This document shows, piece after piece, positions 4,255 to 18,514 of a stretch of DNA of 20,380 bases. The notes under the pieces are model-generated. The model saw only the letters and a list, made by a program, of their open reading frames with translations. It was not told where the DNA came from and ran no database searches. This DNA comes from a virus. Position 1 is the stretch's first letter, and every line of letters begins with the position of its first letter. The stretch lies in the IMG/VR virus record IMGVR_UViG_3300025168_000882, positions 1-20,380 of that record; one strand, written 5' to 3'. The position numbers were made by a program, and so were the translations under genes.

Positions 4255-4270
4255 TGATTACGGTTATAAA
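4255..4270 (-). promoter_or_regulatory. Conserved 16-base promoter box (nuclease/primase unit)
   Basis: Minus-strand TTTATAACCGTAATCA, perfect copy. It lies 5 bp after the PolB stop, and its 3' end is 15 nt from the ATG at 4240, placing the TATA centre at about -26.5. Confidence 0.8.
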
Positions 4271-4275
4271 GATTA

Positions 4276-6513
4276 CTATACCCAAGATATTTTGGATAAA
4301 CCGTTCTTAGCATTCTCTAAAGGTTGTGTGTCCCAACCTGCTAATACATAGTAAGGAGATATTTTATTTATGATAAATCTATCTACTAATACTTTAACCC
4401 CTATACTTTTGATACCTTCAATCTCTGAGGGGTCATCGAATGCTATATACTTTCCGTTTTCATCTAGTGTTACTAAGAAGAAAGACCCTGCTCTATATCC
4501 CTTACCTAGAAACTCATTAGCCCAAGCCGCACCTGCTGATGAGCCGGATAATACTTTGTATTTAGATAAGTCCCTATCTATCTTTCCTTTCATACACAAA
4601 TCTTTCGCTTCTGTTTTACCCCCCATTACAGAGTTAATCAAATCTGATATACGCGATGTGGTAGCATCCTCAGTTTCACGGTTTAATATACCCGTAATAG
4701 TATCAAGCATAGCCTCTTTCATTACTTTAGGCATCCTACTTTGCTTCATCTCAATACCTTTAACGTAAATGTTCGGTGTATGATACTCCCCATCTGTCCA
4801 AGTTACTTTACCCGTATATCTATTCTTGGCTACCATGATTAATCTAGGACACCACTTTTCAAACTCGGCTTCCATCGGGGCTATTCTTTCGTTAATTAAC
4901 GGCAGTAATTCTAAACCTTTTTCGGGTGTAGGTATTTGACAGAACACGGAGTCTGTATGACCGTAGATGACATTAAACCCTACTCTTTGAGCCTCAACCA
5001 TTAACTCACCTAAAGACGCTCTTGAGGTGTGCGTTATAGCGGCGGCTATTTCAGGGTGATACATTCCATATCTAGCATCTCCACAGACACCATACATAGA
5101 AGCAACTAAAGTTTTAGCGGCAAACTGCATACAGTCCCACTTTCTTTTCTTATCATCATCCGAGACAAGCATTTTCATCTTAAAGATATTTCTTAAATCT
5201 GTCATCTTATCCATTTGTCTTACAAGTAATCCTTTTTTATCTTGAGAAAACTTAGTGCCGTTCCCGCAGTCCACTCCTTCGGGGTCTAAACTATCCCAAC
5301 TGATATTATACTTAGCGGCGTTACTATGATACATAGCCTTTATATCTAGGATTCCTACATTATCATATACTCCTGCCTCTACATCTAGTATTTCAGCACC
5401 CTCATAATCAACCTTAGCGAACTGTGGTTGTGTAGGTATGCGTCTATTGAAATCAGAATCAGTTAGAACTAATTGTGTAAACATCTTAGTGATGAATGGT
5501 GTCGAGCGAATATCGCACTGAACAATGTGTTGTAGGGACGTATAGTAATCCAAAGCATTGACTGCCTCATCTAGTTTAGGTAATAGTCTAACATCTTGTC
5601 TAGCGTAGTGTAAATACAAAGCCTTATCTTCCCACCAAGATTCATTATGACCTTTCTCTAATTGAATTTTCTGTTCACCTAATATTTCATAGGCTACATC
5701 ATCTAGTTTGTAGGAAGGTAGTTTTCCGTTCTTTAACTCCCATAGTTTAGATACTGCAAGCATCAAGTCTATACAGTTCCTACCTACTATCGGTTGCGCC
5801 CAATCACCGAACTCATATCTAACCTTTCTCATAGGAGAAAGAGTTAACTCTGATAGGCCACAAGCCCTACATCTTTCCATTATCTGTTTTATATCAGCAC
5901 CTACAACATACCAACCCGCTATAATATCGGGGTCTTGTCTTTTCATGTGCCGCAAAAAGTGAATGAGCATATCTCTTTCAGTAGCAAACCCCATAGCAGG
6001 TGTTTCATATTTGTATTCACCGTATTCTTTGTAAGCCTTACCCTGTCCGTCTTTAAGACCCTGCTCCGCAAGCGTCGGTTCTACAAACCATACATATTCT
6101 TTTTCGGTAAAACTATCGTAAACCACCATCACTCTCATATTGCCTGTGGTCGGAGACCACTCACAATCCATATACCATGTCCTATGATTATAGTTCTGTA
6201 TCGGTTCATTACCATCGTTGATGTAATCACCTAACACCCTATTTGCGTAAGGTATATTCGCTTCCCATGTAGTGCCGTAATAAGATAATTGCTTAACATC
6301 ATAGGGTGTAGCACAAATTATTTTCGTCAAATCTTCTCCGTATAATCCTTTGTAACCTTTTTCCTTTTTAACTGCTTCATCTATATACTCTGCATCTACA
6401 TCTGAAACAAAAGCATAAGGCCAATATCCGGTGATAGTCTTTTCATATCTAGCGCCGTTTTTTTCTCGGCCTCTGATTATAATATCTCTACCTCTACCTC
6501 TCTCGATTATCAT
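4276..6513 (-). CDS. polB: Family B DNA polymerase with 3'-5' exonuclease domain
   Basis: The 745-residue replicative polymerase shows exonuclease motifs Exo I (MDCEW, Asp116/Glu118), Exo II (GWYVVGAD, Asp207, with the usual Asn replaced by Tyr) and Exo III (YARQD, Tyr303/Asp307). The polymerase motifs follow: YEGAEI at 370, motif A DIKAMYHS (Asp390), motif B KTLVASMYG (Lys467-Gly475) and motif C YGHTDS (517-522). Motif C normally reads YGDTDS; the first Asp is His here while the second is kept. The domain order and length fit archaeal/viral PolB with a somewhat shortened N-terminus. The start ATG at 6513 overlaps the TGA of the preceding zinc-ribbon gene (ATGA). With primase, clamp, loader and helicase it forms the viral replisome. 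Confidence 0.97.
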   Translation of the reverse strand: MIIERGRGRDIIIRGREKNGARYEKTITGYWPYAFVSDVDAEYIDEAVKKEKGYKGLYGEDLTKIICATPYDVKQLSYYGTTWEANIPYANRVLGDYINDGNEPIQNYNHRTWYMDCEWSPTTGNMRVMVVYDSFTEKEYVWFVEPTLAEQGLKDGQGKAYKEYGEYKYETPAMGFATERDMLIHFLRHMKRQDPDIIAGWYVVGADIKQIMERCRACGLSELTLSPMRKVRYEFGDWAQPIVGRNCIDLMLAVSKLWELKNGKLPSYKLDDVAYEILGEQKIQLEKGHNESWWEDKALYLHYARQDVRLLPKLDEAVNALDYYTSLQHIVQCDIRSTPFITKMFTQLVLTDSDFNRRIPTQPQFAKVDYEGAEILDVEAGVYDNVGILDIKAMYHSNAAKYNISWDSLDPEGVDCGNGTKFSQDKKGLLVRQMDKMTDLRNIFKMKMLVSDDDKKRKWDCMQFAAKTLVASMYGVCGDARYGMYHPEIAAAITHTSRASLGELMVEAQRVGFNVIYGHTDSVFCQIPTPEKGLELLPLINERIAPMEAEFEKWCPRLIMVAKNRYTGKVTWTDGEYHTPNIYVKGIEMKQSRMPKVMKEAMLDTITGILNRETEDATTSRISDLINSVMGGKTEAKDLCMKGKIDRDLSKYKVLSGSSAGAAWANEFLGKGYRAGSFFLVTLDENGKYIAFDDPSEIEGIKSIGVKVLVDRFIINKISPYYVLAGWDTQPLENAKNGLSKISWV

Positions 6514-6656
6514 GCGACTACCCTATCTATTATCATGTGATTACAATTCTCACACTCATAAATATCGCCTTCACCTTCTACACTATCATAGAATAACCAA
6601 GAAAAAGTAGCGTTACATTTCTCGCAAACCATCATCGGGTGTTTTCTCTTTACCAT
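6510..6656 (-). CDS. Small zinc-ribbon protein, 48 residues, coupled to PolB
   Basis: The ATG at 6656 opens a 48-residue frame with VCEKCNATFSW at about 10-20 and YECENCNHMI at about 33-42, two CxxC knuckles separated by an acidic beta-like stretch: a compact zinc ribbon. Its start overlaps the end of the 24-codon gene upstream, and its TGA overlaps the PolB ATG, so all three are probably translated in tandem. The function is unknown. Coupling to PolB suggests a polymerase accessory or a small regulator, but this is inferred only from location. Confidence 0.8.
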   Translation of the reverse strand: MVKRKHPMMVCEKCNATFSWLFYDSVEGEGDIYECENCNHMIIDRVVA

Positions 6657-6724
6657 AATCTATCTCTCCAACAACCACAGTTTCTATCATTATATGCACC
6701 ACAGTGCAAACACTTCTGTCCCAT
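6650..6724 (-). CDS. Mini-protein with paired cysteines, 24 residues
   Basis: The ATG at 6724 begins a 24-residue frame carrying CLHCG at 5-9 and NCGCWR at 15-20, a CxxC...CxC pattern able to bind one zinc. It starts exactly 15 nt after a conserved promoter box and also has AGGAGT spaced about 8 nt upstream, so it is well placed to be translated. Its last codons overlap the start of the next zinc-ribbon gene. Alternatively it is a short leader ORF that couples ribosomes onto the downstream PolB unit. The cysteine pattern favours a real product, but at this length that is uncertain. Confidence 0.55.
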   Translation of the reverse strand: MGQKCLHCGAYNDRNCGCWRDRLW

Positions 6725-6738
6725 ATTATGAACTCCTG

Positions 6739-6754
6739 TGATTACGCTTATAAA
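6739..6754 (-). promoter_or_regulatory. Conserved 16-base promoter box (PolB unit)
   Basis: Minus-strand TTTATAAGCGTAATCA, one mismatch to the consensus, ending 15 nt before the ATG at 6724. The TAA stop of the upstream HTH gene lies inside the TATA element. Confidence 0.78.
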
Positions 6755-7023
6755 GATTTCCTTTGACCTCTTGCTCTAGTAGTAATTTCGTGTTTGTTTA
6801 ACCACGCATTGATAGCCATAGCAGTTACACCGCACATAGCACCTATCTCTGCCATAGTCTTACCATTGGCAACGTATTCATTACGCAACCATGCTTCTTC
6901 TCTATGAAGCCCTTTGTTAGACGAAGGATAAAATGCAACACTTACGTTGTATTCTTCTCCATCAATCTCAATCACTTTGCTGTTTTCACCTAATTCTATA
7001 TCTGTCAATGTTATATTTACCAT
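6748..7023 (-). CDS. Small helix-turn-helix DNA-binding protein
   Basis: The 91-residue protein has a beta-rich N-terminal half (MVNITLTDIEL, EYNVSVAFYP) and a C-terminal helix-turn-helix: EEAWLRNEYVANGKTMAEIG, then CGVTAMAINAWLNKHEITTR, matching the homeodomain-like pattern (T..EIA..CGVS...I..WL) common in phage regulators and nuclease accessory domains. A basic tail (RARGQRKSL) follows. The frame extends to a TTG at 7038, but the ATG at 7023 is preferred: it has GGAGTG about 13 nt upstream next to the clamp stop codon, and the ATAATATG start context seen elsewhere here. It is the last gene of the RecA-like/clamp unit and may be a viral transcription regulator; targets are unknown. Confidence 0.75.
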   Translation of the reverse strand: MVNITLTDIELGENSKVIEIDGEEYNVSVAFYPSSNKGLHREEAWLRNEYVANGKTMAEIGAMCGVTAMAINAWLNKHEITTRARGQRKSL

Positions 7024-7027
7024 ATTA

Positions 7028-7864
7028 TCACACTCCAATGTTACTCATTTGGAATATGAAATCGCCATCGCCTAGCGTAATCAACATAGGATAACCCATG
7101 TTTACTTCTGTGAAATCCCACAAAGCAATACTCACTTCGCTGTTAAGATTTTGGAATATGTATTCTAAGCCACCGTTGTATGTGGCTGTTATCGGGTCTG
7201 CTTCACAAGCGTCTACATCTATCATCGTAGTAGTTTTACCCTTAAGTTCTTTACCCACGCCTATTGATAATTTACCTTCTTCATAGGAAACACTATATTG
7301 GTTAAACTTCTGACCGTTCATAGAATCACATCTAAGCGCTTCATACATAGTAGTGCTATCAAGTCCCTCTAACAGAACTAAAGGTTCTATTATAGAACCG
7401 TCATTCTTAGTATAGGTTTTACTTTCCGCGTCTATCTTTTTTACTATATCGTTAGACTTACTGTGCCATTGACCGATAGTTTCGGGTGTATGTGGGAAAG
7501 CCCTAGCATCCGTGTTACCCGTAATAGTAGTCTGTTTACTACCACTTTTAATAGTAATTTTATCCCCTTTATTAATCACGGTTAGAACACCACCATGATA
7601 CTTGAGAACACCTAACAGATTATCTATATCAGTGATAGCGATACCTAAACCATTAGAGTTTACTGTTGTGCATGGTATTGATAAGTTTATCAAGGATGTA
7701 ACACCATCCTTTACTAAAGAACGACAATACAATCTATGTTTTTCCGGTATTAGTAAAACCGAATGTATCTGTGAGATACTTTTACCGTCAATTGTTTGCT
7801 TTCTTTGTGCTAGTTTTAACAACCATATTAAAGAATTGCATTCGACTGTTATAGAAGGTGGCAT
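7028..7864 (-). CDS. Divergent PCNA-like sliding clamp
   Basis: The 278-residue protein is rich in beta strands alternating with short helices, as expected of the clamp fold. Supporting segments are LLGVLKYHGGVLTVINKG followed by KITIKSGSKQTTI (centre), and a C-terminal run GGLEYIFQNLN, VSIALWDFTEV, MLITLGDGDFIFQMS, which parallels the end of PCNA and phage clamps (helix, strand, then P/M-L-x-I...YxLAP). It lacks a recognisable PIP-box partner motif of its own. Length is slightly above cellular PCNA (about 250). Its place between the RecA-like ATPase and PolB units, with an RFC loader nearby, makes the clamp assignment likely, though sequence similarity is weak. The start has GGAGTGA 4 nt upstream, fused to the previous stop. 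Confidence 0.6.
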   Translation of the reverse strand: MPPSITVECNSLIWLLKLAQRKQTIDGKSISQIHSVLLIPEKHRLYCRSLVKDGVTSLINLSIPCTTVNSNGLGIAITDIDNLLGVLKYHGGVLTVINKGDKITIKSGSKQTTITGNTDARAFPHTPETIGQWHSKSNDIVKKIDAESKTYTKNDGSIIEPLVLLEGLDSTTMYEALRCDSMNGQKFNQYSVSYEEGKLSIGVGKELKGKTTTMIDVDACEADPITATYNGGLEYIFQNLNSEVSIALWDFTEVNMGYPMLITLGDGDFIFQMSNIGV

Positions 7865-7868
7865 ATAA

Positions 7869-7875
7869 TCACTCC
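7869..7875 (-). promoter_or_regulatory. Ribosome-binding site GGAGTGA of the clamp gene
   Basis: GGAGTGA is 4 nt before the ATG at 7864 and contains the TGA stop of the RecA-like gene, coupling translation of the two. Confidence 0.7.
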
Positions 7876-8819
7876 GTCATAAATGGTAGACCATACCACT
7901 CTACTTTACCCGCCTTTATGCGTAATACATCGTGCGTCGTGCCAACCTTTTCTATGTTACTACCTTTCATTTCTTCAATAGTAGCCCGTATAACCCATTC
8001 GTTATCAGCAAGGCTTCTGTCTCCTTCAACACCTGCGGCGGGGTCTGCTTTCTTCATAAATCTACTCAAGAATACTTGCTGTGAGAACTTTCTCATTGTG
8101 CCTTTCTCCCATTCCGGCCTAAAGCCAACGGTCATCAAAACCTTTTTACCTGTTCCGTCATCCATATACTGTGATACAGCCTTTAGATGGAATGTGAAAT
8201 ACACCTTAGCCACATTTAAACTATGAAGCCTAGATAGAGTATTTCTATATAGACGGTTACGCTCTCTCCATTCTTTCTGATTGAATGTGCCATCCTCTGT
8301 TTCGATAATTCCCCTGTCTAATAATGAAGCACGCATAGCGTGTTCACACCATTTCAAGAATGTCGAACCGCCATCAAATATAATACCACCTATACTATCC
8401 GGTGCATCTTTTACTATATTAGCAAGAATGTTCACGTAGTATGACGTTTTATCTAGCAACGCTTTGTAATCGACATTATTCTCATCATCAAAGATAGAGT
8501 CATCTGTTTCATCGTGCAACGGTAGAACGATGATGTTATCTTGGTTCGGGTAGATATAATCTACTGTGGATTTTGCGGAGTTATCTACATCAAAAATGTA
8601 TACCTTTTTACCTTCTTTAATCTCACTGTCAAGTAATGACAGTGCCAAACCCGTCTTAGCAGTATTCTCATGTCCTATAAAGGCCGCCCTATGTGTAACT
8701 GTTTTCATCGTGTTGTTTTCAAACAACCCTCTGTAATATGCTTCATCGAACCTTGTTGTAGGTTCTGTTGTTTTACTTTTAATCTCTGTCTTGGTCGGTG
8801 TTTTATCTCCCCATGTCAT
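7869..8819 (-). CDS. RecA-fold ATPase (RadA/Sak4-like recombinase candidate)
   Basis: The 316-residue protein has a P-loop at 49-56 (GHENTAKT, with Ala where Gly is usual), a strand KVYIFDVDNS at about 72-81, and a Walker B strand GGIIFDGG ending at Asp149. An aromatic strand KVYFTFHLK follows, then a long C-terminal part with a beta hairpin. This order fits the RecA/RadA/Sak4 ATPase core. Viral Sak4-type proteins promote strand annealing or exchange with an SSB. There is no N-terminal helix-hairpin-helix domain as in cellular RadA. It opens a unit with the sliding clamp and an HTH protein, consistent with recombination-dependent replication. Start: the ATG at 8819, 15 nt from the promoter box. 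A KaiC/Rad55-like regulator is an alternative. Confidence 0.7.
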   Translation of the reverse strand: MTWGDKTPTKTEIKSKTTEPTTRFDEAYYRGLFENNTMKTVTHRAAFIGHENTAKTGLALSLLDSEIKEGKKVYIFDVDNSAKSTVDYIYPNQDNIIVLPLHDETDDSIFDDENNVDYKALLDKTSYYVNILANIVKDAPDSIGGIIFDGGSTFLKWCEHAMRASLLDRGIIETEDGTFNQKEWRERNRLYRNTLSRLHSLNVAKVYFTFHLKAVSQYMDDGTGKKVLMTVGFRPEWEKGTMRKFSQQVFLSRFMKKADPAAGVEGDRSLADNEWVIRATIEEMKGSNIEKVGTTHDVLRIKAGKVEWYGLPFMTE

Positions 8820-8833
8820 ATATATCCCTCATT

Positions 8834-8849
8834 TGATTACGGTTATAAA
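8834..8849 (-). promoter_or_regulatory. Conserved 16-base promoter box (RecA-like/clamp unit)
   Basis: Perfect minus-strand TTTATAACCGTAATCA just after the GroEL stop, 15 nt from the ATG at 8819. A GAGGGAT lies between box and start and may serve read-through transcripts. Confidence 0.8.
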
Positions 8850-8854
8850 CCTTC

Positions 8855-10381
8855 TTATTCTCTAGGTGCTATGATAGCGGCATCGGTCATTAGAACCAAT
8901 GCGGCAACAGACACGGCACTCTCTAAACTGTTGATAACTACGTTAACAGGGTCATAGACCCCATCATCTTTAGCCTTTCTCATTTCTCCGGTCTTACCAC
9001 ACATATAATACGCCTTACCGAGAGAAAACCTAGTGTTTTCCGCACCACTATTCGATACAATAGTAGTTATAGGTGTTAGCAAACCGTTTACAAACAGTTC
9101 AAAAACATCACCGTCATACCCTGCTTTTCGTAACGCTTGCGCCGCATGATATAATGTTGCACCACCGCCGATGACAACACCGGCTTCAAGAGCATGACGA
9201 CAAGCGTTAACTGCATCATCCACTCTCTCTTTTCTTTCGACCTGCTCAACTTCGGTAGCACCCCCAACATAAATTGTTGAGATGCCCGTAGTAAGTCTTG
9301 ATAGACGATTATTCATTTGTTCTGCTAACCATTCGTGTTCAGCACCTTCTATATTCTGCATCAAGGTAATTAAATGTTTATCATTACCCATGACTTTCCT
9401 GCTTATGACTGTGCTTCTAGCACTAGCCTCTATACGCTCTGCATCTCCTATCATATTTGGTTTTATATCACCGATAGTTTCTTTTAAGGTAGTAGAAAGT
9501 AATTTAGCACCTGTCAACGCCGCTATATCTTCAAGCCACGCTTGTTTTTGTTCGTGCATACCACTAGGTTTAATAACACAAGCACTTATTTTACCCTGAA
9601 CTATATTAACTAAAAGATTTTGTATCATCTTTGGGTTATAATCAGCACAGAAAAATACAATAGGTCTACCCTCTTTAACCGCTATTTCTAAAGAAGGTAA
9701 TAATGTATTAAAACTTTCCAATTTTTCAGTAGTGCATACTACAAAAGAATTATCTAAGATACATTTACCTCTAGGTGAATTAGCCATTAGATTATGAGCA
9801 TAACCTGCGTTGACTTCCATACCGGAACTATCTTTAATATACGTCTGTGTAGTGGGAGATGTTTCTATTGTTATAGCACCCTTTGAACCCACTTCATTAA
9901 CTACATCAGCAATCATTACACCTAACTCTTCGTCGTTATTCGCGGCAATAGTAGCCACATCTTTCAAATCAAAGTCTGTTATACTTTCATCTCTAAGATA
10001 TTCAATAGTTTGTTCTAAGAAATCTTTAAACTCATCTCTTATTTGTAAGGGCGACGTTCCTTTCTCCATCAGAGATAATGAACCATTACACAATGTCTGT
10101 GCTATTAATGTTGCGCTTGTAGTTCCATCACCGGATTTCTCCTGTGCTTCTGATGCTACTTCCTTCAACAAATCAATACCCATTTGTATGTAAGGGTCTC
10201 TATCGGTTATTGCTCTCGCTATTGTTACACCATCATTAAGAATGACGGGCGCACCAATAGGATTTTGTATAATCACTGTTCTCGCGTTAGCACCCAAAGT
10301 CCCTTTGATAGAGTTCGCTACTTTGTTTACCCCTATAAGTAATTTTGAGCGTGCTTCTGTTCCTGTTAATATCGTTTCCAT
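8855..10381 (-). CDS. groL: Group I chaperonin GroEL
   Basis: The 508-residue protein follows bacterial GroEL through all three domains: LGANART near 29 (equivalent of LGPKGRN, altered), GAPVILNDGVTIAR (Asp50 equivalent to Asp52), GDGTTSAT (Asp85 equivalent to Asp87), IAANNDEELG, GAITIE, the apical ADYNPKMIQNLL and AWLEDIAALTGA, then VGGATEVE and VDDAVNACRHALEAGVV-GGG with the catalytic Asp of the 398 position. It is a group I type, not the archaeal thermosome. The Gly/Met-rich C-terminal tail is missing; it ends IIAPRE. The frame is open to 10480, but the ATG at 10381 with AGGTGA 4 nt upstream, overlapping the GroES stop, gives the correct N-terminus. Likely job: folding abundant viral proteins with the adjacent GroES. 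Confidence 0.96.
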   Translation of the reverse strand: METILTGTEARSKLLIGVNKVANSIKGTLGANARTVIIQNPIGAPVILNDGVTIARAITDRDPYIQMGIDLLKEVASEAQEKSGDGTTSATLIAQTLCNGSLSLMEKGTSPLQIRDEFKDFLEQTIEYLRDESITDFDLKDVATIAANNDEELGVMIADVVNEVGSKGAITIETSPTTQTYIKDSSGMEVNAGYAHNLMANSPRGKCILDNSFVVCTTEKLESFNTLLPSLEIAVKEGRPIVFFCADYNPKMIQNLLVNIVQGKISACVIKPSGMHEQKQAWLEDIAALTGAKLLSTTLKETIGDIKPNMIGDAERIEASARSTVISRKVMGNDKHLITLMQNIEGAEHEWLAEQMNNRLSRLTTGISTIYVGGATEVEQVERKERVDDAVNACRHALEAGVVIGGGATLYHAAQALRKAGYDGDVFELFVNGLLTPITTIVSNSGAENTRFSLGKAYYMCGKTGEMRKAKDDGVYDPVNVVINSLESAVSVAALVLMTDAAIIAPRE

Positions 10382-10384
10382 TTT

Positions 10385-10391
10385 ATCACCT
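10385..10391 (-). promoter_or_regulatory. Ribosome-binding site AGGTGAT fixing the GroEL start
   Basis: AGGTGAT stands a few bases before the ATG at 10381 and overlaps the TAG stop of GroES, coupling the pair and ruling against the upstream in-frame start at 10480. Confidence 0.7.
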
Positions 10392-10707
10392 AAAGATAAT
10401 TGTCGTGTAAGTCTTGTTCTTGGTATAATTCGCCGTTGACGTATATACCGAACTCGTTGTCTAAAGAAGAGACCGCACATATTTTACTGTAATGTAAAAC
10501 ATAAATACCATCTGTCCTTTCGGGATGAAGAGAGGAAAGTATAGCATCATCTGATAAGACTACACTATCTCCTACTGTCAATTCGCTTGCTACTTGCTTA
10601 CCTATTGAATGTATCGTATACATAGTGTCGGTTATCAGACCACTATTACTAACACTTTCATGGCTCTCTAGCAGAACAAACTCCCCAACGGCTCTCCAAC
10701 CATTCAT
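10390..10707 (-). CDS. groS: GroES-like co-chaperonin
   Basis: The 105-residue protein aligns with the GroES fold: WRAVGEFVLLE (first strand), a short SNSGLITDTMYT in place of the mobile loop, IHSIGKQV...LTVGDSVVLSDDAI (matching VLAVGxG...VKVGDxVxF), and YVLHYSKICAVSS (matching the VLIMSESDILAI end). About 25 extra residues follow at the C-terminus. Sequence identity is low, as with viral co-chaperonins such as T4 gp31, but its position directly before GroEL makes the call strong. The frame starts with GTG at 10722; the ATG at 10707 is preferred because the GTG lies within the previous gene and the homology begins after the ATG. It caps GroEL and encloses the substrate. Confidence 0.82.
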   Translation of the reverse strand: MNGWRAVGEFVLLESHESVSNSGLITDTMYTIHSIGKQVASELTVGDSVVLSDDAILSSLHPERTDGIYVLHYSKICAVSSLDNEFGIYVNGELYQEQDLHDNYL

Positions 10708-10709
10708 AC

Positions 10710-11891
10710 TCAAGCATCCCACCCATCAGTAGAATTGTCATCACCAAAGTCAGGTGCGGCCATTTGTGCTACTTCGTCAAAAGCCCACCAACCGTTTACA
10801 CTCATTCTATCTTCACCTTCACGGCTTCTCCATGCTTGACCGTGTAGTAGTAATTTTGTTCCGACACCAAAGGAAGGTATCTCATCACAGTAAACATCTA
10901 TTGTTCCGGCCATTGATGTAATATCTACATCACCGCATACAAGAATAGCACCGCCTTTATCTCTAGGGTCAATGTGTATTACTTCTGCTACTGTTGCACA
11001 GGTTCTATCCCACCAACCTTCTTTACCGTTAAAGTTATCGTAGTAAGCACCCAAAGCACCTAAGTTAGATAGCATATTTTCATCACCAATAATAGCAGGT
11101 AACATATCTACCGGCGAACCGCTAAACATAGACACTAATTCAGGATTAAGAGTAGGTAATGAAACATCTAAGTTCATATAACATCTATTATTCTTACCTG
11201 TTTTTAGGGGAATAGTAAGTGGAGTAAAGGTAGGGAATTGACGGTCAGCCGCCTGTCCGTTACCGCTTACAGTAAACACCTGTGGTTCACCTGTCGAACC
11301 TTGTGGTCGGCCATAGAATAATGAAGTTCTTTCTCTCTCATCTTGAGGTCGAGGCGCACCATACTTGAAGTTAGCATCTCCGCTAGGGAAGGTAGGGTTA
11401 TTCTTATCCCACACTACATAGAATTGTGTGTTGCCATCCAATGGCATAACGTGTTTTGGTAGTGAAGTAACATCACTTTCTGTCCCAAACCCGAACATCT
11501 CTGCCGCAAGTCTAGTGTATGTCCCGTCATTATTATTCTCAAACAGCACTACTGCACCGCTATTGACTAAAGCCATCCTTACTTCTTGAGGTGCGGAAAT
11601 CATTTGGTTCTTCATTTTATTGTAAAGTATTTTACCCCATTCTTTAGGTCGTGGGACAGAGATAAACATACCTTCGTATGTATCAGCACCGGCTCTACGC
11701 ATTCTCGCATTTTCAGTAGTAATGTTTCTTCCTGCTACTCTAAGAGCAAGGATAAAACAATCTTCATCAGAGCGACCGGCATTCTTCCATGCCGCCCCCT
11801 GTTCTGCGAGGACAGCGTTAGCCCTCTCTTGCACCATCTCCGGTGCGACGTTCAGCGTTTTCGCAATATTATTTAACATATCATTAGTCAT
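10710..11891 (-). CDS. Putative OB-fold ssDNA-binding protein (RPA-like)
   Basis: The 393-residue protein starts with a helical segment (residues 1-60, with KTLNVAPEMVQERANAVLAE), then has beta-rich regions that look like OB folds: AGADTYEGMFISVPRP at about 66-81, and a C-terminal GGAILVCGDVDITSMAGTID...VGTKLLLHGQAWRS segment typical of OB strands 1-5. The very end is acidic (DFGDDNSTDGWDA), as in many SSBs that recruit partners through an acidic tail. This supports an RPA/SSB role; no zinc finger is seen and sequence similarity is too weak for certainty. It heads the unit with GroES and GroEL. Its start has AAGGTGA about 7 nt upstream and a longer leader than the other promoters. Confidence 0.5.
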   Translation of the reverse strand: MTNDMLNNIAKTLNVAPEMVQERANAVLAEQGAAWKNAGRSDEDCFILALRVAGRNITTENARMRRAGADTYEGMFISVPRPKEWGKILYNKMKNQMISAPQEVRMALVNSGAVVLFENNNDGTYTRLAAEMFGFGTESDVTSLPKHVMPLDGNTQFYVVWDKNNPTFPSGDANFKYGAPRPQDERERTSLFYGRPQGSTGEPQVFTVSGNGQAADRQFPTFTPLTIPLKTGKNNRCYMNLDVSLPTLNPELVSMFSGSPVDMLPAIIGDENMLSNLGALGAYYDNFNGKEGWWDRTCATVAEVIHIDPRDKGGAILVCGDVDITSMAGTIDVYCDEIPSFGVGTKLLLHGQAWRSREGEDRMSVNGWWAFDEVAQMAAPDFGDDNSTDGWDA

Positions 11892-11921: not shown

Positions 11922-11937
11922 TGATTACGGTTATAAA
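11922..11937 (-). promoter_or_regulatory. Conserved 16-base promoter box (SSB-like/GroES/GroEL unit)
   Basis: Perfect TTTATAACCGTAATCA immediately after the RFC stop. Here the box ends 31 nt from the ATG at 11891, 16 nt more than elsewhere, leaving room for a leader with AAGGTGA. Confidence 0.8.
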
Positions 11938-11938: not shown

Positions 11939-12817
11939 CTATCCCACCATCATTCGGACAAAGTTAGCCTTGACAATAAACTCATCAACACCATCTATTA
12001 TGTCCCTTTCCGCCGCAATAGCCGCATCAATCACACGAAGTTTATTTTGGGTCGAGGCTTCACCATCAACCGCATCTGTAAAGATAGCACGAACAACCGA
12101 GCGTGTATCTTCATCCTTTAGCATAGTATAACTACTATTAAAATTGTTATCTTTAAAACATAGTTTTAAGAAAGAAATACTATCGAAGTCTAACTCTCCT
12201 AAACTTCTAACGAATTGTGATGCACCAATGGGTTCATCGAAGGAAGCATACGCTTGTAATGCGTTAATAGCATTTCTCATGTCTCCTAAATTGGCTTTGC
12301 ATATTTGACGCAATTGCGTCTCTGTAATACCTACATTTTCTGCACCACAGATATATTCTAACCTACCCATCATAGCATCTATTTGTGGTGGTATTATTTC
12401 TATGTTTAAACAACGAGACTTAATCCATTGTGTTACTTTACTCTCATCGTTACAAGTAAGAATAAAGAAGCCTTGTGCATTCTCTATCACACCTTTCAAA
12501 GCACCCTGTGCTTCGGGTGTCAATTGGTCTGCTTCGTCTAATAATATAATCTGTTTGTAATTACCGGAACGTGTCAAAGGAATTAACTCTTCTTCAACGA
12601 ATGCTATACCTCTAGTTTTCTTAGAGGAAGCATTGAATATATGTAATTGATAACCTAACTGATTTGCTAGAACATAAGCAATAGTAGTCTTGCCTGTTCC
12701 TGCGCCCCTACTATGTAGTAACAAGTGTTGCATACTTTCTGCCAAATGATTTAGATGTTTAATACCACCAATACACTCTTCAAAAGTAGCAGGTCTATAT
12801 TTGTTCGCCCAAAGCAT
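11939..12817 (-). CDS. rfcS: Clamp loader ATPase, RFC small-subunit type
   Basis: The 292-residue AAA+ protein begins LWANKYRPATFEECIG, the hallmark N-terminus of RFC small subunits, and carries a Walker A GAGTGKTT (38-45), Walker B LLDEADQL (Asp94-Asp97), a sensor strand FFILTCNDESK and the SRC arginine-finger motif (Ser134-Arg135-Cys136). The C-terminal collar is shorter than in cellular RFC-S (about 320 residues). It loads the sliding clamp at primer ends with ATP. No RFC large subunit is in the window; the loader may be a homo-oligomer like T4 gp44, with a small partner elsewhere. The gene has its own promoter box 15 nt from the ATG and forms a single-gene unit. Confidence 0.95.
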   Translation of the reverse strand: MLWANKYRPATFEECIGGIKHLNHLAESMQHLLLHSRGAGTGKTTIAYVLANQLGYQLHIFNASSKKTRGIAFVEEELIPLTRSGNYKQIILLDEADQLTPEAQGALKGVIENAQGFFILTCNDESKVTQWIKSRCLNIEIIPPQIDAMMGRLEYICGAENVGITETQLRQICKANLGDMRNAINALQAYASFDEPIGASQFVRSLGELDFDSISFLKLCFKDNNFNSSYTMLKDEDTRSVVRAIFTDAVDGEASTQNKLRVIDAAIAAERDIIDGVDEFIVKANFVRMMVG

Positions 12818-12831
12818 ATCTAACCGTCGTT

Positions 12832-12847
12832 TGATTACGGTTATAAA
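12832..12847 (-). promoter_or_regulatory. Conserved 16-base promoter box (RFC unit)
   Basis: Perfect TTTATAACCGTAATCA abutting the TAG stop of the upstream gene, ending 15 nt before the ATG at 12817. Confidence 0.8.
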
Positions 12848-13207: not shown

Positions 13208-13606
13208 TTAACCCTTTCTAAGACAATGTAAACACATCTCTGTTTCCGGTGGAAAAACACGTATCTTCCCACAGCGACATTGATGCGCTGTCTCACGTTG
13301 CTTAGGTGTCATAACGGTTGGACTACGGGTATAAACTATTTCATCACGATGTTGAATCAATTCGCGGTCAATATCGTATACTAGATGTTTGGCTTTGATA
13401 CCAACAGCATTTTCTACTAACTCAGAACCCACCGCTATTATCTGTGGATTCTTAGAGAGAAGTGCTGAAAGGCTATGAGGTGAAGGAACAGCACGCACAT
13501 TCTTTTCGCTAGATAACTTTTGTGCTACACCCTCTTTTGTCATAGCACCATGTTCCCATAGTATATCAACTATAAGTCTACGGACTCTTCGGTTATTTGC
13601 ACTCAT
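13208..13606 (-). CDS. Winged-helix DNA-binding protein with C-terminal zinc knuckle
   Basis: The 132-residue protein begins with a winged-helix pattern (RRLIVDILWEHGAMTKEGVA, then a helix SLSALLSKNPQIIAVG as recognition helix and wing). Its last 25 residues contain CRCGK and CLHCLRKG, a CxC...CxxC zinc knuckle. This architecture fits a small transcription regulator. It starts 26-27 nt after a TATA-like TTATAA, with no Shine-Dalgarno, so it is likely leaderless. The TATA element overlaps the stop codon of the membrane-protein gene upstream. The specific target cannot be read from sequence. Confidence 0.75.
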   Translation of the reverse strand: MSANNRRVRRLIVDILWEHGAMTKEGVAQKLSSEKNVRAVPSPHSLSALLSKNPQIIAVGSELVENAVGIKAKHLVYDIDRELIQHRDEIVYTRSPTVMTPKQRETAHQCRCGKIRVFPPETEMCLHCLRKG

Positions 13607-13637: not shown

Positions 13638-13848
13638 CGTTCCCTACATCAGCCCAAAATACGCCATCTGCGAAGGAGTTTTGTTGATATTCACCACACG
13701 GACTGAGGGGTGTGTCGCAAGCGTCTTGTTTAATAAGAATTACTCTGTTCTCAAAAAACTTTTGTAACATCTCATCAACAAATAAAGCAAGGAAACCTAA
13801 CCCTAAAAAGGAAAATACACAGAAAAGATTCGACCATATTATATCCAC
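13630..13848 (-). CDS. Small single-pass membrane protein
   Basis: The 72-residue product starts with GTG at 13848, overlapping the previous gene by 10 bp. Residues 6-25 (WSNLFCVFSFLGLGFLALFV) form a hydrophobic helix, followed by a polar region with NRVILIKQDACDTPLSPCGEY. It looks like a small N-anchored membrane protein with two cysteines outside the helix. No ATG is available before residue 27, which would remove the membrane segment, so the GTG is accepted with caution. The function is unknown; small membrane proteins in viral early regions often modify the host envelope or host metabolism, but nothing here shows which. Confidence 0.6.
   Translation of the reverse strand: MDIIWSNLFCVFSFLGLGFLALFVDEMLQKFFENRVILIKQDACDTPLSPCGEYQQNSFADGVFWADVGNDL
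13712..13724 (+). repeat. 13-bp repeat GTGTCGCAAGCGT, copy 1
   Basis: This GC-rich 13-mer occurs three times in the same orientation, each time inside a different minus-strand gene, reading Ala-Cys-Asp-Thr. Copy 1 is in the small membrane-protein gene. Confidence 0.6.
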
Positions 13849-14504
13849 TTATGTTGCCTCTGTTTGGTTTTACGCATACCTTTCGGTATGTTACCATTGT
13901 CTCTAACTTTATTGGCTACGGTTATAGAGTTTTCTAAAAGTATCTCCCAATGTTTATCAGTCCTACGAAACAATTCCGGCTTTTCTTTTACCGTTACTTT
14001 CTTTTTAGGCCATTCTACTCTTTTACGGGAAGGTTTTATACCATACACTAAAGATGCTTTAAGATACTTTTCCGGTAAAAAGTAAAGAACCTTTGCTACC
14101 CTTCTCCACATTTCAATATCACTTACATTGGCTTTGAGAAACCAAAGTAACAAAGCAGTAGGTTGGTCTTTATAGAATGCTTTAACCCTATTTCTATCTT
14201 CCCAATTAACCATGCCCCTCACCAACATGAAAGTTTCGTTGTTGTCTTTCTTTTTTAGGTTGTCGTCAATAACACATAATTCTTTAGCCTTCTTAGACAG
14301 TTTAGGTAGTTTTTCCGTAACTATAACCAATTTATTCTGTATCAAAGGAGACCAAATAATCACATCATCAGAAGAAAATTTATTACTATGTAATATATAT
14401 GTAGTTTCTTTTAAGGTAGGAATACTGTCTATCATACCGTGCATAATAATTTCATTGTCGCTACGGAAAGGTGTCTCGTCATTTGTAAATATTATAATGC
14501 TCAT
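13839..14504 (-). CDS. Unknown protein, possible clamp-loader accessory
   Basis: The 221-residue product begins MSIIIFTNDETPF at the ATG at 14504 (the frame opens earlier at a TTG at 14516), with GGGGG just upstream. Its middle contains SPLIQNKLVIVTEKLPKLSK and LKKKDNNETFMLVRG, then a helical region (LLLWFLKANVSDIEMWRRVA) and a basic stretch KPSRKRVEWPKKK. The first part recalls the domain of DNA polymerase III delta-type subunits where a strand LVIV precedes lysine-rich helices, and its size is like the T4 gp62 clamp-loader partner. This is only a weak resemblance; no ATPase motif is present. It has its own TATA box about 45 nt upstream. Confidence 0.6.
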   Translation of the reverse strand: MSIIIFTNDETPFRSDNEIIMHGMIDSIPTLKETTYILHSNKFSSDDVIIWSPLIQNKLVIVTEKLPKLSKKAKELCVIDDNLKKKDNNETFMLVRGMVNWEDRNRVKAFYKDQPTALLLWFLKANVSDIEMWRRVAKVLYFLPEKYLKASLVYGIKPSRKRVEWPKKKVTVKEKPELFRRTDKHWEILLENSITVANKVRDNGNIPKGMRKTKQRQHKWI

Positions 14505-14545
14505 ACCCCCTTTCAATTTTTTTAGTCAATTTTTTCCAAACCATG

Positions 14546-14553: not shown

Positions 14554-14801
14554 TCAAATGGGTCATTCCCATAGATGTAATCTTCCACTCTGCTCATTTG
14601 ATGTGTCGATAAGTTCCACATACTACGCACTACCTTTTTTTGTAGGCGATAACCACCATGAAACCAAAATATACCCTCGCTAGTTATCATAGCAAAAAGA
14701 CCATCTTCTATCATACTCTTTATCAACTTAGGTATTTCTTCCTTAAAAATAGGTCTAGTAGCAAAATACTTGTCAGTAGTCTTTCTCCATTTTTTACTCA
14801 T
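14547..14801 (-). CDS. Small basic protein of unknown function
   Basis: The 84-residue product is basic at its N-terminus (MSKKWRKTTDKYF), with an amphipathic helix IPKLIKSMIEDGLFAMIT and an aromatic strand-turn-strand GIFWFHGGYRL that could be the wing of a winged-helix fold; the end is acidic. This is only a fold-level impression. Its ATG overlaps the TGA of the preceding gene (ATGA) and GGTGATA lies just upstream, so it is translationally coupled to the zinc/HTH protein gene. Confidence 0.65.
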   Translation of the reverse strand: MSKKWRKTTDKYFATRPIFKEEIPKLIKSMIEDGLFAMITSEGIFWFHGGYRLQKKVVRSMWNLSTHQMSRVEDYIYGNDPFDL

Positions 14802-15415
14802 TCTATCACCTTGAAGGGAACGTCAATAGGTGTAGACAACAGATTTAACTTTCTTTCTACATCGTCTAGTAATCTAGGTTGGTCTGCTAAAGTTTCTACA
14901 AGTATTCTACTCACATCATTTAATTGATTATTGGCTAATAGTAATTGACTATCAACACCTATTTCTTTCTTCAATTGACCCACTAATTTTAGCGATGTAT
15001 TAGCCTGTGCGATAAGCCTAGAGGCATCGGCTACGAACTCTGATGTGATACCACCTTCGGCTTCTTTCCTGTCCTCTAATTCGTCTAAATAATTTCTTAT
15101 TCTAATAACAATATCTTCGGCTGAGTCTAAAGTATTGATAGATTGTGAACGTGCTTGTTCCATGTGCATACCCTCAGTAGGGTTATATTCCATGTGCGTG
15201 TCCATGTGGTGCATAACCGTCCCATCCGGCCAATTATATTTAGCCTCAAGATAACTCGGTGAAGTATCTTCGTTAAAGACCTGTTTCTCCAACTCTTTAC
15301 TTTCCTTATGCTCACACATCTCACAACCACCTGCCAATACCCAATTTAAAACTTCCATAGCAAAAGCGTCATTTTCAGTAGCAAGCCTTTGCTGTATCTC
15401 AGTTTTTGTTCTCAT
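14798..15415 (-). CDS. Zinc/HTH DNA-binding protein, small-terminase-like candidate
   Basis: The 205-residue product has a CxxCxH motif at about 31-36 (CEMCEHKESKELE) followed by SYLEAKYNW, GTVMHHMDTHMEY. This matches a domain frequent in phage proteins (C..C.H..R..IE..L......IA..YG.S...V..H...H), where a zinc-bound start precedes a helix-turn-helix. The remaining 110 residues are helical and coiled-coil-like (EDIVIRIRNYLDELEDRK, LLLANNQLNDVSRILVETLA). DNA-binding domain plus oligomerising helices is typical of terminase small subunits and also of other phage regulators; no large terminase lies in this window. The start overlaps the preceding stop (ATGA). Confidence 0.7.
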   Translation of the reverse strand: MRTKTEIQQRLATENDAFAMEVLNWVLAGGCEMCEHKESKELEKQVFNEDTSPSYLEAKYNWPDGTVMHHMDTHMEYNPTEGMHMEQARSQSINTLDSAEDIVIRIRNYLDELEDRKEAEGGITSEFVADASRLIAQANTSLKLVGQLKKEIGVDSQLLLANNQLNDVSRILVETLADQPRLLDDVERKLNLLSTPIDVPFKVIE

Positions 15416-15606
15416 TCTTCTTCATCCTCACTTATTATTAAGGGTAATATACCTTCAAACAAAACACCATTTAGTGTCATTTTGATATACAACGCTTCTG
15501 TACCGTCTGTTGTTTTATCCATCATGACACAATCCAATATCTTACCTTTACCCATCGGTGGGCTACTGTATTTTCCAAAGTTTATCCATCTTCTATTCTC
15601 ACTCAT
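15412..15606 (-). CDS. Small beta-rich protein of unknown function
   Basis: From the ATG at 15606 the product is 64 residues: MSENRRWINFGKYSSPPMGKGK, then a beta pattern (ILDCVMM, ALYIKMTLNGVLFEGILPLII) and an acidic end SEDEEE. The frame opens earlier at 15666, but this start has AAGGAGTGA 5 nt upstream and lies 15 nt after a conserved promoter box. No family is recognised. It leads the unit with the zinc/HTH protein and the small basic protein, linked by ATGA overlaps. Confidence 0.7.
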   Translation of the reverse strand: MSENRRWINFGKYSSPPMGKGKILDCVMMDKTTDGTEALYIKMTLNGVLFEGILPLIISEDEEE

Positions 15607-15607
15607 A

Positions 15608-16012
15608 TTATTCACTCCTTTGATTATCCTTATAAAGTTTCGTGCCTTTGCCGTGATATATAGCATCCTTACCCCTTGCTCTATGTGGGTCTAAAGACCA
15701 ATATTTATCATAGTCATTTTTATCGAAACTATAAACCCAACCCTTTGTATCATAATAAATATTACTGTCGACTGTGGCTGTCTTTCTTTTAAACCCCTCA
15801 TGGCAGTTAAGATGATGACGGAACGTGCCAAAACTTCTAGCAAACCTATGGTTTTTGTAGAGATTACCATTTTTGAATGTCATCTGATAATATATTTCTT
15901 TGGCTGTAAACCATTCATCATTTGACCGTTCACAGAAAAACCTACCCGCACACTCCAACATTTTACTATTTTTCCTTCCTCTTGCTTTCAATCCTGTTCT
16001 TTCCTTATACAT
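15608..16012 (-). CDS. Winged-helix-like basic protein of unknown function
   Basis: The 134-residue product has a very basic start (MYKERTGLKARGRKNSK), a helix-rich region with FTAKEIYYQM and FARSFGTFRHHL resembling the two helices of a winged helix, and aromatic strands (NIYYDTKGWVYSF) that could form the wing. It ends with a basic, glycine-containing tail. The ATG at 16012 is preferred to the GTG at 16021 because GGGGTG lies 6 nt upstream; it overlaps the end of the MCM-like gene by 8 bp. The end of the gene (AGGAGTGAATAA) contains the ribosome-binding site of the next gene. A DNA-binding role near the helicase is plausible. Confidence 0.68.
   Translation of the reverse strand: MYKERTGLKARGRKNSKMLECAGRFFCERSNDEWFTAKEIYYQMTFKNGNLYKNHRFARSFGTFRHHLNCHEGFKRKTATVDSNIYYDTKGWVYSFDKNDYDKYWSLDPHRARGKDAIYHGKGTKLYKDNQRSE
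15621..15636 (-). promoter_or_regulatory. Variant 16-base promoter box (15606 unit)
   Basis: Minus-strand TTTATAAGGATAATCA is inside the coding end of the winged-helix gene, with its 3' end 15 nt from the ATG at 15606. An AAGGAGTGA ribosome-binding site lies between box and start, so the gene can be read by both leaderless and read-through mRNAs. Confidence 0.7.
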
Positions 16013-17336
16013 CTTTCGCACCCCACTTTATAGGTTCACTTTCTTCACTTACTTTACCAAACCGACAGATGACACCCTTACGGCCTCTTCTTTTTACACT
16101 AGGCTCAACCTCACTATACCATGTCTGTCCTTCTAGGTTTTCTATCAACCAACGCTTTGCCGATTGATAGTCGCCCATAGTTACCATTCGTGAAATCTCT
16201 TTTAGCAATTGGCTCTTTGGAATATCCTTCATCCAAAACGCACTCTTGATTAACTCAAGGTCTGCATCCATTACTCTTCTACGTTGTGCTAACGACTGAT
16301 TTAATATTTCCCTTAAAGTATCATCAAGAGTAATTATCAACGGCTCTCCGCCACGATATGTAGGTTGCATCATAGCATAACCAATACACATCCTACGGAA
16401 TAAATCAGCCTCAAAAGAACGAACATCCGGTCTGTCTATCCACTCCATAATATCATTAGCAAATAATATTCCTGTTGGTGGGTTCGCTACTGCTTCACGC
16501 ATTCTATTTCTTATCCATTCTTTTATCTCTATATTAAGATTTGCTAATTCTAGCCTGTCATCTTTTTGCATATTTGCCTGTGCGTGCTGTGCAAGTTTAT
16601 ACGCTCTCTCCTTTTCCGGTGTCATCTCTATATCAATGATAAAGAAACGTCTATCTAAACCGGAGTCTAACTCAAACCTAGCAGGTTGAGTTCCCGCCCA
16701 CACTGTATATCTTGTAGTATAATTTACCCAACCGTTTCTCATGGCTTTCTGCACCCTACCATTATCTAAGGATGTAAGTAATTGGTTTTTCATATCCATA
16801 CTGTGGTCTTTTTTAGACGCATCAGACATAGAGGAAAATTCTTCAAACCCTAAGAAGCCGCCACACATCTCTCTCGCGATTGGTCGCCCTGCTATATTAC
16901 CTTCTTCATCTACTGAACCGAACATACCTGCTTCTGTGATAGAGTTAGCACCCATCATAGTGTTAAATCCTTGACCTAAATCTGAATTAGAATTGTATAC
17001 TAAGCCTGTGCCTTCTGCTAGGAACATAAGAATTAAAACCGATTTACCGCTACCTTTAGCACCTCTCATCAAGATATGAATACGTGTATCAGGTAATTGA
17101 GACATAGGTGTATAGAATGGTATGTTATCATGTCTAAGAGGACAATTTTCTATAACGAAATCACCTTCTTCTTGGTTTACTAAAGGGCTGTCGGGGTCAA
17201 AATCACATCGACTGCACTTGTTTAGTGCGTTAAATATATGACCGCCAACGCTACATAGAAAGATAGGTATTTTATCCTCTACGTCTACGAAGAAGTTTCT
17301 TTGTGCGAACTCAATAGTTTTATCGAAAATATTCAT
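16005..17336 (-). CDS. Short MCM-like AAA+ replicative helicase with N-terminal zinc knuckle
   Basis: The 443-residue protein has an N-terminal cysteine group (Cys28, CSRC at 41-44, ENCPLRH at 64-69) and then an AAA+ core: Walker A GAKGSGKS (92-99), a Walker B-like GFLGFEEFSSMSDA (Glu165-Glu166, lined up with MCM IDEFDKM), the insert QLLTSLDNGRVQKAM, sensor-1 strand YTVWAGTQPARF and the arginine-finger region SGLDRRF (Arg229). A C-terminal winged-helix-like tail ends with KRRGRKG. It is little more than half the length of cellular MCM and lacks the OB domain, so the zinc knuckle may substitute for part of the DNA-binding N-terminus. It should unwind the template ahead of PolB. The ATG overlaps the previous TGA. 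Confidence 0.8.
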   Translation of the reverse strand: MNIFDKTIEFAQRNFFVDVEDKIPIFLCSVGGHIFNALNKCSRCDFDPDSPLVNQEEGDFVIENCPLRHDNIPFYTPMSQLPDTRIHILMRGAKGSGKSVLILMFLAEGTGLVYNSNSDLGQGFNTMMGANSITEAGMFGSVDEEGNIAGRPIAREMCGGFLGFEEFSSMSDASKKDHSMDMKNQLLTSLDNGRVQKAMRNGWVNYTTRYTVWAGTQPARFELDSGLDRRFFIIDIEMTPEKERAYKLAQHAQANMQKDDRLELANLNIEIKEWIRNRMREAVANPPTGILFANDIMEWIDRPDVRSFEADLFRRMCIGYAMMQPTYRGGEPLIITLDDTLREILNQSLAQRRRVMDADLELIKSAFWMKDIPKSQLLKEISRMVTMGDYQSAKRWLIENLEGQTWYSEVEPSVKRRGRKGVICRFGKVSEESEPIKWGAKDV

Positions 17337-18112
17337 TGTAAATTAGCCCCCAAATGCTCTGCGTGTTTTAGTGCATCCATCATCTCGCTATAATAAAGAG
17401 TATCATACGGCAACCCGTGAACGTCCATCATAAATTCTAATAATCTATCTGCCTCAGTTTTGTTTAGGTATGTTGTGTTATCACTTGCACAAATCACCAA
17501 CCAATTACCACGAATACTTTTACCGCAAAAGTTATTGAATAATTGACACATAATCCATGATGGTGAAGGCACTATCATTTCTAAGTCATCTATAACTTCT
17601 CCATTAGTTAGTGTTAATACATCATCTTCCGGTTCAACAAAATCATACACAATCAATTCTTTTTGTGGTATCTGCGGTTGTTCTTCAAACAAGAAATCTT
17701 GCATAACATTTGACGTTAGATATACTAACTCATCAACTCCGTATGTATTCATTTCTAGTATAATGTCTCTCATAACAGGATAGTTATACAACCATGACTT
17801 TGTTTGTTCGGGTGAGGGAACGTAAGCATGAGATAGTTTAAGGATAAAATAACGTCTACCATCAGAATTATATTTAGAATACAATCTCCATTCGGGGTAG
17901 GTAGATAGAGGTAAACTATTCAAAGGCTCTACTTGATGTAGTTTTGAAAATATTTTACAGACAGGTTCACTATTACCTACTAAACTAGAACCGGCTACTA
18001 AAGAAGCAAATCCTTGTTCATTTGTATAATACACTACTAAAGTGCTAGGTTCATTGTTGTATTTATCTGCCCATACAAAGTCAGTGTCTCCACGTTGTTT
18101 AATATAACTCAT
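17333..18112 (-). CDS. Unknown protein, faint resemblance to PAC2-type chaperones
   Basis: The 259-residue product has an alpha/beta pattern: PSTLVVYYTNEQGFASLVAG, a middle RYFILKLSHAYVPSPEQTKS-W, VDELVYLTSNV and WLVICASDNTTYLNKTEADR followed by a helix. The strand/helix rhythm, with a nucleotide-free Rossmann-like core, faintly recalls archaeal PAC2/proteasome-assembly proteins, but this is a pattern impression only. It lies in the helicase operon between a winged-helix gene and the MCM-like helicase, with ATGA overlaps at both ends, which argues for a partner or regulator of the helicase. It has no nuclease or ATPase motif. Confidence 0.65.
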   Translation of the reverse strand: MSYIKQRGDTDFVWADKYNNEPSTLVVYYTNEQGFASLVAGSSLVGNSEPVCKIFSKLHQVEPLNSLPLSTYPEWRLYSKYNSDGRRYFILKLSHAYVPSPEQTKSWLYNYPVMRDIILEMNTYGVDELVYLTSNVMQDFLFEEQPQIPQKELIVYDFVEPEDDVLTLTNGEVIDDLEMIVPSPSWIMCQLFNNFCGKSIRGNWLVICASDNTTYLNKTEADRLLEFMMDVHGLPYDTLYYSEMMDALKHAEHLGANLQ

Positions 18113-18483
18113 TCTAATCTCTCCTGTATTGCTTTCTGTAAGAACATCGGGTATTTTTTAACAGGTTTTTTTGAGGCAATAGCCCTATCAACCACATCAT
18201 CTAAAGGTCTAGCATCCCACACGGCTACTAACCCATTAAACATAGTCTGCCCTACCTTCTCAAAGAGTAATGACTTAGCCATTACATTACTAACCTGTCT
18301 CGCACTTGTGCCTTGATTTCTACCTCTAGCATAATACTGGTCGGCATTCTTTCTTACCGCATTATACCAATGTGCTATTTCATTCGCTGTTTTTTGTCCT
18401 TCTTCTTGAAGGTATTCATAAACGCTAGTCTGCAATCTTTTGTTAGCACCCCGCTTAGTATACCTATCATCTTTCCTCTGCAT
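18109..18483 (-). CDS. Winged-helix DNA-binding protein heading the helicase operon
   Basis: The 124-residue product has a basic N-terminus, a helix-turn-helix (VYEYLQEEGQKTANEIAHWY, TSARQVSNVMAKSLLFEKVG) and a short strand GLVAVWDAR as the wing, followed by a basic tail KKPVKKYPMFLQ. This fits small viral winged-helix proteins that bind DNA or regulate transcription. It is the first gene after a promoter box at 18499 and the 208-bp gap, followed by the MCM-like helicase unit; it may regulate the operon or help load the helicase. Its stop overlaps the next ATG. Confidence 0.75.
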   Translation of the reverse strand: MQRKDDRYTKRGANKRLQTSVYEYLQEEGQKTANEIAHWYNAVRKNADQYYARGRNQGTSARQVSNVMAKSLLFEKVGQTMFNGLVAVWDARPLDDVVDRAIASKKPVKKYPMFLQKAIQERLE

Positions 18484-18498
18484 ATTATCATCTCTGTT

Positions 18499-18514
18499 TG
18501 TTTACGGTTATAAT
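18499..18514 (-). promoter_or_regulatory. Variant 16-base promoter box (helicase operon)
   Basis: Minus-strand ATTATAACCGTAAACA, two mismatches to the consensus, ending 16 nt before the ATG at 18483. It starts a four-gene unit with the MCM-like helicase. Confidence 0.7.

Follow-up and report, generated by a model that had tools for sequence, protein, structure and literature searches.

A putative TATA-based promoter element with a lineage-specific tail ahead of the replication genes of a tailed virus of likely archaeal host

What keeps a 16-nucleotide (nt) box in nearly fixed register before start codons dispersed over the replication genes of a virus, and what reads the part of it that lies beyond the TATA sequence? 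The question arises from the stretch of viral DNA analysed here (20,380 nt, positions 1 to 20,380 of IMG/VR record IMGVR_UViG_3300025168_000882; hereafter the window), whose minus strand carries repeated copies of the consensus TTTATAACCGTAATCA. Our reading, to which we assign a probability of about 0.7, is that the box would form the core of dispersed promoters by which the virus turns on its DNA-replication module, and that its tail, downstream of TTTATA, would be read by a shared factor.

Scanned with up to 3 mismatches allowed, the window gave nine matches to the consensus, every one on the minus (gene) strand, where shuffled sequence would lead one to expect 0.41. A preliminary description of this DNA had listed seven sites, and its coordinates and distances were confirmed: the box ends 15 nt before the A of the ATG at 4240, 6724, 8819, 12817 and 15606, 16 nt before that at 18483 and 31 nt before that at 11891. 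Six of these sites are solid. Four are exact, of which the first (4255-4270), with an orthologous site in most relatives, precedes gene 3929-4240, a zinc-ribbon-like gene directly after the family B DNA polymerase (PolB) gene; the second (8834-8849) precedes a RecA-like ATPase gene (7869-8819) and is kept in nearly all relatives across a range of PolB identity of 57-94%; the third (11922-11937) precedes an RPA-like gene (10710-11891), which is followed by GroES-like and GroEL genes; and the fourth (12832-12847), also conserved, precedes the clamp-loader gene rfc (RFC small subunit-like, 11939-12817), which has no Shine-Dalgarno sequence (SD). The site TTTATAAGCGTAATCA (6739-6754), with one mismatch, heads the PolB operon and is kept in the relatives G001, G002, L008 and L050. 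The site ATTATAACCGTAAACA (18499-18514), with two mismatches, precedes a winged-helix-like gene (18109-18483, hereafter gene 18109), at which seven relatives (G001, L022, G006, G010, G012, G015 and G345) have ATTATAACCGTA or a box of the ATTAAA type. The names RecA-like, RPA-like, GroES-like and PCNA-position were given by eye or from gene order, with no family match above the cut-off, and no Pfam family reached the cut-off for the RecA-like ATPase gene. That the box controls all core replication units holds for operons only, since no box stands directly before the PolB, PCNA-position (7028-7864) and GroEL genes, which come after genes headed by one.

Searches with PolB led to about 80 related loci, 49-94% identical, in which boxes precede the same genes: rfc, the RPA-like and RecA-like genes, the small Cys-rich gene that opens the PolB operon, the gene that follows PolB, and gene 18109. 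At some of these genes the box is absent from more distant viruses, having been lost or never present. TTTATA begins 29-31 nt before the ATG in the relatives, and 42-54 nt before it at the RPA-like gene. Across the 237 kb of six contigs, the core TTTATANNYGTRAT has 22 matches, where 0.6 are expected in shuffled sequence, and all 22 have an ATG in register; other TTTATA sequences in the same contigs have an ATG at that distance in 51 of 183 cases. The preliminary description had named beforehand, as one outcome that would speak against it, a box as frequent in coding sequence as upstream of genes, and this was not seen. In-register boxes were confined to the replication module, with none in the structural module in records of up to 68 kb, and a search for a late-gene promoter motif found no 9-mer convincingly shared by the regions ahead of the structural genes. 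An exact-word scan of IMG/VR was set aside, as most of its 42 matches look like chance and the only relatives among them were L008, L010/L036, L022, L023 and L041.

Comparison of the boxes showed that TTTATA is constant, while the next 8-10 nt differ among virus lineages and agree across the loci of one genome. The tail reads ACCGTAATCA in the clade of the window virus, TGTGTAAT in L054, L063 and L199, TGCGTAAT in L071, TCCGTAAT in L066, ACCCTAA or ACCGTATTA in L057, TGCGGATAG in L227, GGCGGATA in L223 and L224, and AGCAAAGAAG or ACCTAAGAAG in L209. We quantified this agreement in 23 dereplicated viruses (85 cross-locus pairs), choosing sites by TATA and distance only, so that the tail was not used, and shuffling genomes within each locus 5000 times. 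Tail identity within a genome was 0.759, compared with 0.521 (standard deviation 0.016) after shuffling, and the observed value was reached in none of the 5000 shuffles. The flanks gave far smaller differences: 0.365 versus 0.330 for the 10 nt after the tail, and 0.446 versus 0.377 for the 8 nt before the TATA, so that the position of a B recognition element upstream of the TATA is only slightly shared. Since the flanks share phylogeny and composition with the tails, neither accounts for the agreement of the tails. In one distant relative (G343), a word learned from three sites led to three further copies on the replication strand. Separate sites that change together are best fitted by a shared trans-acting factor that would read the tail; for sites so short, whose flanks are unlike, recombination appears a poor alternative. 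Concerted variation within genomes thus supports the trans-acting part of the virus-specific activator suggested in the preliminary description, and its sign, activation or repression, is a matter of interpretation.

The remaining matches in the window differ from these sites. The seventh listed site, TTTATAAGGATAATCA (15621-15636, three mismatches), is without the CGTAAT core and lies in the end of an open reading frame (ORF 15608-16021, ending in LYKDNQRSE and a stop). Because the relative G001 retains much the same DNA as coding sequence with a different gene downstream, this site is probably a fortuitous match explained by the coding sequence. Two further matches, each with three mismatches, are coding lookalikes, TTTATACCCGTAGTCC (13320-13335) in ORF 13208-13606 and TCTATAACCGTAGCCA (13913-13928) in ORF 13839-14516. 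The former remains CCCGTAGTCC in relatives whose true boxes are TGTGTAAT, and does not track the lineage variants.

The window is a fragment of the genome of a tailed marine virus, in which PolB, a chaperonin, an ERCC4 nuclease, a PD-(D/E)XK nuclease and a clamp-loader ATPase were identified. Terminase, portal, tape measure and tail tube genes are recognisable in longer relatives, and in G012 and other relatives the portal and tail genes lie opposite in strand to the replication genes, with the terminase on the replication strand. The PolB operon consists of a 23-residue Cys-rich ORF (6654-6724), a second small Cys-rich ORF (6513-6623) and PolB; the first of these, MGQKCLHCGAYNDRNCGCWRDRL, is 77-89% conserved in close relatives. 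A Group I-like chaperonin (Pfam match Cpn60_TCP1) and the adjoining GroES-like ORF (together 8855-10722) belong to the operon of the RPA-like gene. The GroES-like ORF has a weak PHROG match to head morphogenesis, and GroEL was undetectable in several distant relatives. This gene content resembles that described for the Aoguangviridae (Magrovirales), viruses of Marine Group II (MGII) archaea (PMC10768690), in that PolB, clamp loader and chaperonin lie in a replication cluster and the tailed-virus structural genes are oppositely transcribed; the likeness was set by gene content and the published description, the reference genomes OR863078 and ON649702 being outside the compared collections. The nearest GenBank phage records by PolB are those of haloviruses, at ∼23-25% identity. 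No close relative was found among 319 MGII genomes, and a host link through binning was rejected because the matches in 13 of the 319, with weak scores over a partial range, were read as cellular polymerases. From gene content, an archaeal host is likely and an MGII host plausible.

In such a host, TBP (with TFB) would bind TTTATA, and transcription would begin with the ATG itself or a few nt ahead of it, to give leaderless or nearly leaderless mRNA. The 8-10 nt after the TATA (CCGTAATCA in the window virus) would then act as a second element, recognised by a factor that is sequence-specific and common to the box promoters of one virus; this reader would most simply be a virus-encoded activator, and the copies would change together as the factor changes. 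In the halovirus HF2 the TATA starts at -26 from the transcription start (PMC8707807), and geometry of this type places the predicted start site of the box genes on their ATG or a few nt upstream of it. TTTATA, at 29-31 nt before the ATG, does lie at archaeal core-promoter spacing, the start site itself being predicted. The absence of an SD from rfc (0 of 11 viruses) fits a leaderless start. At the RPA-like gene, where ∼17 nt of extra spacing is retained in all relatives and an SD occurs at a frequency of 0.89, a short leader with an SD may be made instead; in the window the extra stretch (31 nt spacing) holds the SD GGTGA.

Several points weigh against this reading. An SD lies between box and ATG at the RecA-like gene (frequency 0.94) and at gene 3929-4240 (0.91), and more generally SDs stand between TATA and ATG at most genes with a box, and likewise in the second promoter class described below, where a start at the ATG would leave them untranscribed. 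Thus, of the earlier proposal that the TATA sits 26-28 nt from the ATG as in archaeal leaderless genes, the TATA-type promoter in leaderless register stands, and most genes carrying it also have an SD. The simplest reconciliation may be a double use, with the SD allowing translation from read-through operon mRNA and leaderless translation serving the local promoter, but the tension is real. In addition, the host is deduced from gene content, and no viral TBP or TFB was detected in the fragments searched, which all come from incomplete contigs, so that a TFB could lie elsewhere. With none detected, host TBP and TFB should read the TATA, and the sigma-like class that had been proposed is unsupported.

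We also asked whether the tail could belong to the host. In MGII genes (L098-L175 and L246-L281), TATA-like hexamers TTCAAA/TTGAAA peak at about -30 from the ATG; start codons were mechanically assigned in these genomes, and the host figures are approximate. The viral TTTATA stands in the same -30 register. MGII genes with a TATA-like hexamer at -32 to -27 had an SD fraction of 0.29, compared with 0.42 overall (964 non-redundant regions), a reduction as expected for leaderless genes; this uncultured group may thus have leaderless promoters whose TATA sequence is unusual. An attempt to derive the host TATA from tRNA promoters gave only 10 usable genes and nothing informative. If the tail reflected a preference of host TBP, TFB or TFE, or a host regulator, each viral lineage would match its own host lineage. 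In favour of this, the host is a deduction, different viral lineages may have different hosts, and viruses presumably often copy host promoters. However, the box was not enriched in 20 MGII genomes (7 matches versus 27 for a reversed-pattern control), no similarity is shared by the 10 nt that follow MGII TATA-like elements (0.26 for the genome sampled best, against a mean of 0.78 for the viral tails), and the box is limited to one viral module, which makes a host-read tail improbable. As the preliminary description had held, conservation of the tail goes beyond TBP binding: CCGTAATCA is under extra constraint and is virus-specific relative to the sampled MGII genomes. A more serious competitor, though still rather unlikely, is an operator, at which a viral repressor bound to the tail would keep the replication genes off early or shut them later, the TATA alone being the promoter. 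A protein bound between TATA and start could readily occlude the promoter, and most characterised regulators of archaea and their viruses are repressors (PMC5569661); this explanation shares the evidence of concerted variation with ours and differs only in the sign of regulation.

Two other explanations were considered. Were the virus a bacteriophage, TTTATA would belong to a -10 element and its transcripts would have a short leader with an SD, which would place the SDs within the transcript; the second promoter class can also be read as CTTGCGA-17 nt-TATAAG, resembling a -35/-10 pair, and the GroEL and GroES genes are bacterial-like too. Yet at nearly all box sites the final position of such a -10 element (TATAAT) would hold a C or a G (TATAAC, TATATG, TATAGG, TATATC), the box class has no fixed -35 and rfc no SD, and the clamp loader and ERCC4 nuclease, the PolB nearest to haloviruses and the gene content matching Aoguangviridae all speak against it, so that we regard bacterial-type promoters as very improbable. 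Hardly credible is an RNA element, a signal for intercistronic processing or translation control in read-through mRNA. Boxes do lie directly after upstream stop codons and before SDs, but no consistent fold was found (z -1.6 to +1.3), the invariant part is a TATA sequence at archaeal promoter distance, and the RPA-like gene is alone in its deviating spacing to the ATG, the gap there being occupied by an SD.

The box promoters are not the only repeated elements of these viruses. A second class has the upstream element TGACGCTTGCGA together with a TATA-like hexamer; counted from the first base of the core word CGCTTGCG within that element, the hexamer mostly comes at 24 nt and the ATG 29-30 nt further. 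It occurs in 3-8 copies per contig in G001, G348, G012, G006, G345, G010 and G344, clustered in a presumed early region (8.9-15.8 kb in G001, 43-52 kb in G348, 40-48 kb in G012), and was absent from G343, G350 and G015. The window has one copy on the minus strand, with the upstream word at 20040-20047; TTTATA (20018-20023) follows at 24 nt from the start of the word, and at a further 29 nt comes the ATG (19994) of a winged-helix-like gene (MRKKTARGEI..). The mechanically called ORF 19737-20051 contains this promoter; its start at 20051 is probably wrong, and the ATG at 19994 the likely start. The word CGCTTGCG, unlike the tail, is the same in distant viruses. G343 (L284), which is without this class, carries at 48.5-52.4 kb a repeated intergenic element around TATGCTACAAATTTGTAG in both orientations. 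Most of the stretch from the terminase gene to gene 18109 belongs to the second class, which from gene 18109 on is succeeded by the box class; the promoter of this gene has both elements in G006, G010 and G012, and the box only in the window, G001 and L022. The two classes along one arm provide a first map of a likely early-to-replication switch, in which we infer the temporal class from gene position only.

Gene 18109 (18109-18483, minus strand) encodes a fast-evolving, divergent winged-helix-like protein, and its position at the switch between the promoter classes makes it the best-placed candidate reader of the tail. Searches of Pfam and of PDB sequences with the winged-helix-like ORFs gave no significant match. 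ORF 13208-13606 (minus strand) encodes a winged-helix and zinc-ribbon-like protein, among the most conserved of these viruses (49-92%). Its structural model (pLDDT 93) had TFIIE alpha as best fold match, with an E value of 3.1e-4 but a TM score of 0.37, and is a lead only. This protein is less likely to be the specificity factor, as its presumed recognition region is nearly invariant while the tails change. We also considered a virus-encoded TFB, as reported for Aobingvirus (PMC10768690), and rejected it as tail reader: the TFIIB-like matches, on the N-terminus of the RPA-like ORF 10710-11891, were weak (12-14 bits, below the cut-off), and TFIIB gave no match in 15 distant relatives. We put forward, tentatively, a private and fast-diversifying promoter code, in which a viral DNA-binding protein (candidate, gene 18109) would act with host TBP and TFB, factor and sites would co-evolve to a new word in each lineage, and a slower-evolving upstream element would run the early genes.

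Bacteriophages of the T7, T3 and SP6 type have one promoter word per virus, diverging with its reader, a phage RNA polymerase. The present system would work alike in having one word per virus, with the difference that a host RNA polymerase is presumed, and we claim no membership in that group. Among archaeal viruses, one of the closest parallels is HF2, whose class I and class II intergenic-repeat promoters are restricted to early-middle or late regions, are conserved in position and have been proven by reporter assays and primer extension (PMC8707807). HF2 and the viruses described here, both of them tailed viruses with a family B polymerase and an archaeal host (a likely one here), share repeated, TATA-bearing, virus-unique elements between genes, one module per class, with positions conserved among relatives, as they are in the window viruses, and viral regulators proposed. 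The HF2 repeats, however, are 56-58 or 29 bp long with motifs around the TATA and the start site, whereas here a compact 16-bp box lies near start codons with a word that abuts the TATA; moreover, the present word changes as a set from one related virus to another, and the promoters are predicted from sequence. Neither of the HF2 strings TCTTTAAGTC and CCCTTTAC, examples of its class I/II motifs, was found in the aligned boxes. In SIRV1 and SIRV2, a GTC motif downstream of the TATA was proposed as a virus-specific element (Kessler 2004, as summarised in the review PMC5569661). It is likewise a cis element that is peculiar to its archaeal virus and follows the TATA in many promoters there, but the tails described here have no GTC, belong to another type of virus, serve replication genes only and are lineage-specific words. 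The early genes of SIRV2 share extended promoters whose regions outside the TATA and BRE differ between viruses, with the winged-helix protein Aca8 proposed as regulator (PMC11065993); a common promoter core with virus-specific surroundings is thus a shared trait, while there the genes are early anti-defence genes and here they are replication genes with a tail that abuts the TATA. The system is of the same kind as the HF2 and rudivirus elements, and distinct in sequence, in its compact TATA-abutting form, in the module served and in the lineage-wise replacement of the word. No paper on magrovirus promoters was found in the literature searched.

Start-site-enriched marine RNA data have been published for an MGII-rich community (PMC5069720). 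Viruses of uncultured marine archaea are abundant, and one word per virus, replaced as a set in the next, would allow promoters, operons and the regulon to be predicted from metagenomic sequences of archaeal viruses, and yields a clear hypothesis of the viral regulator that may read them.

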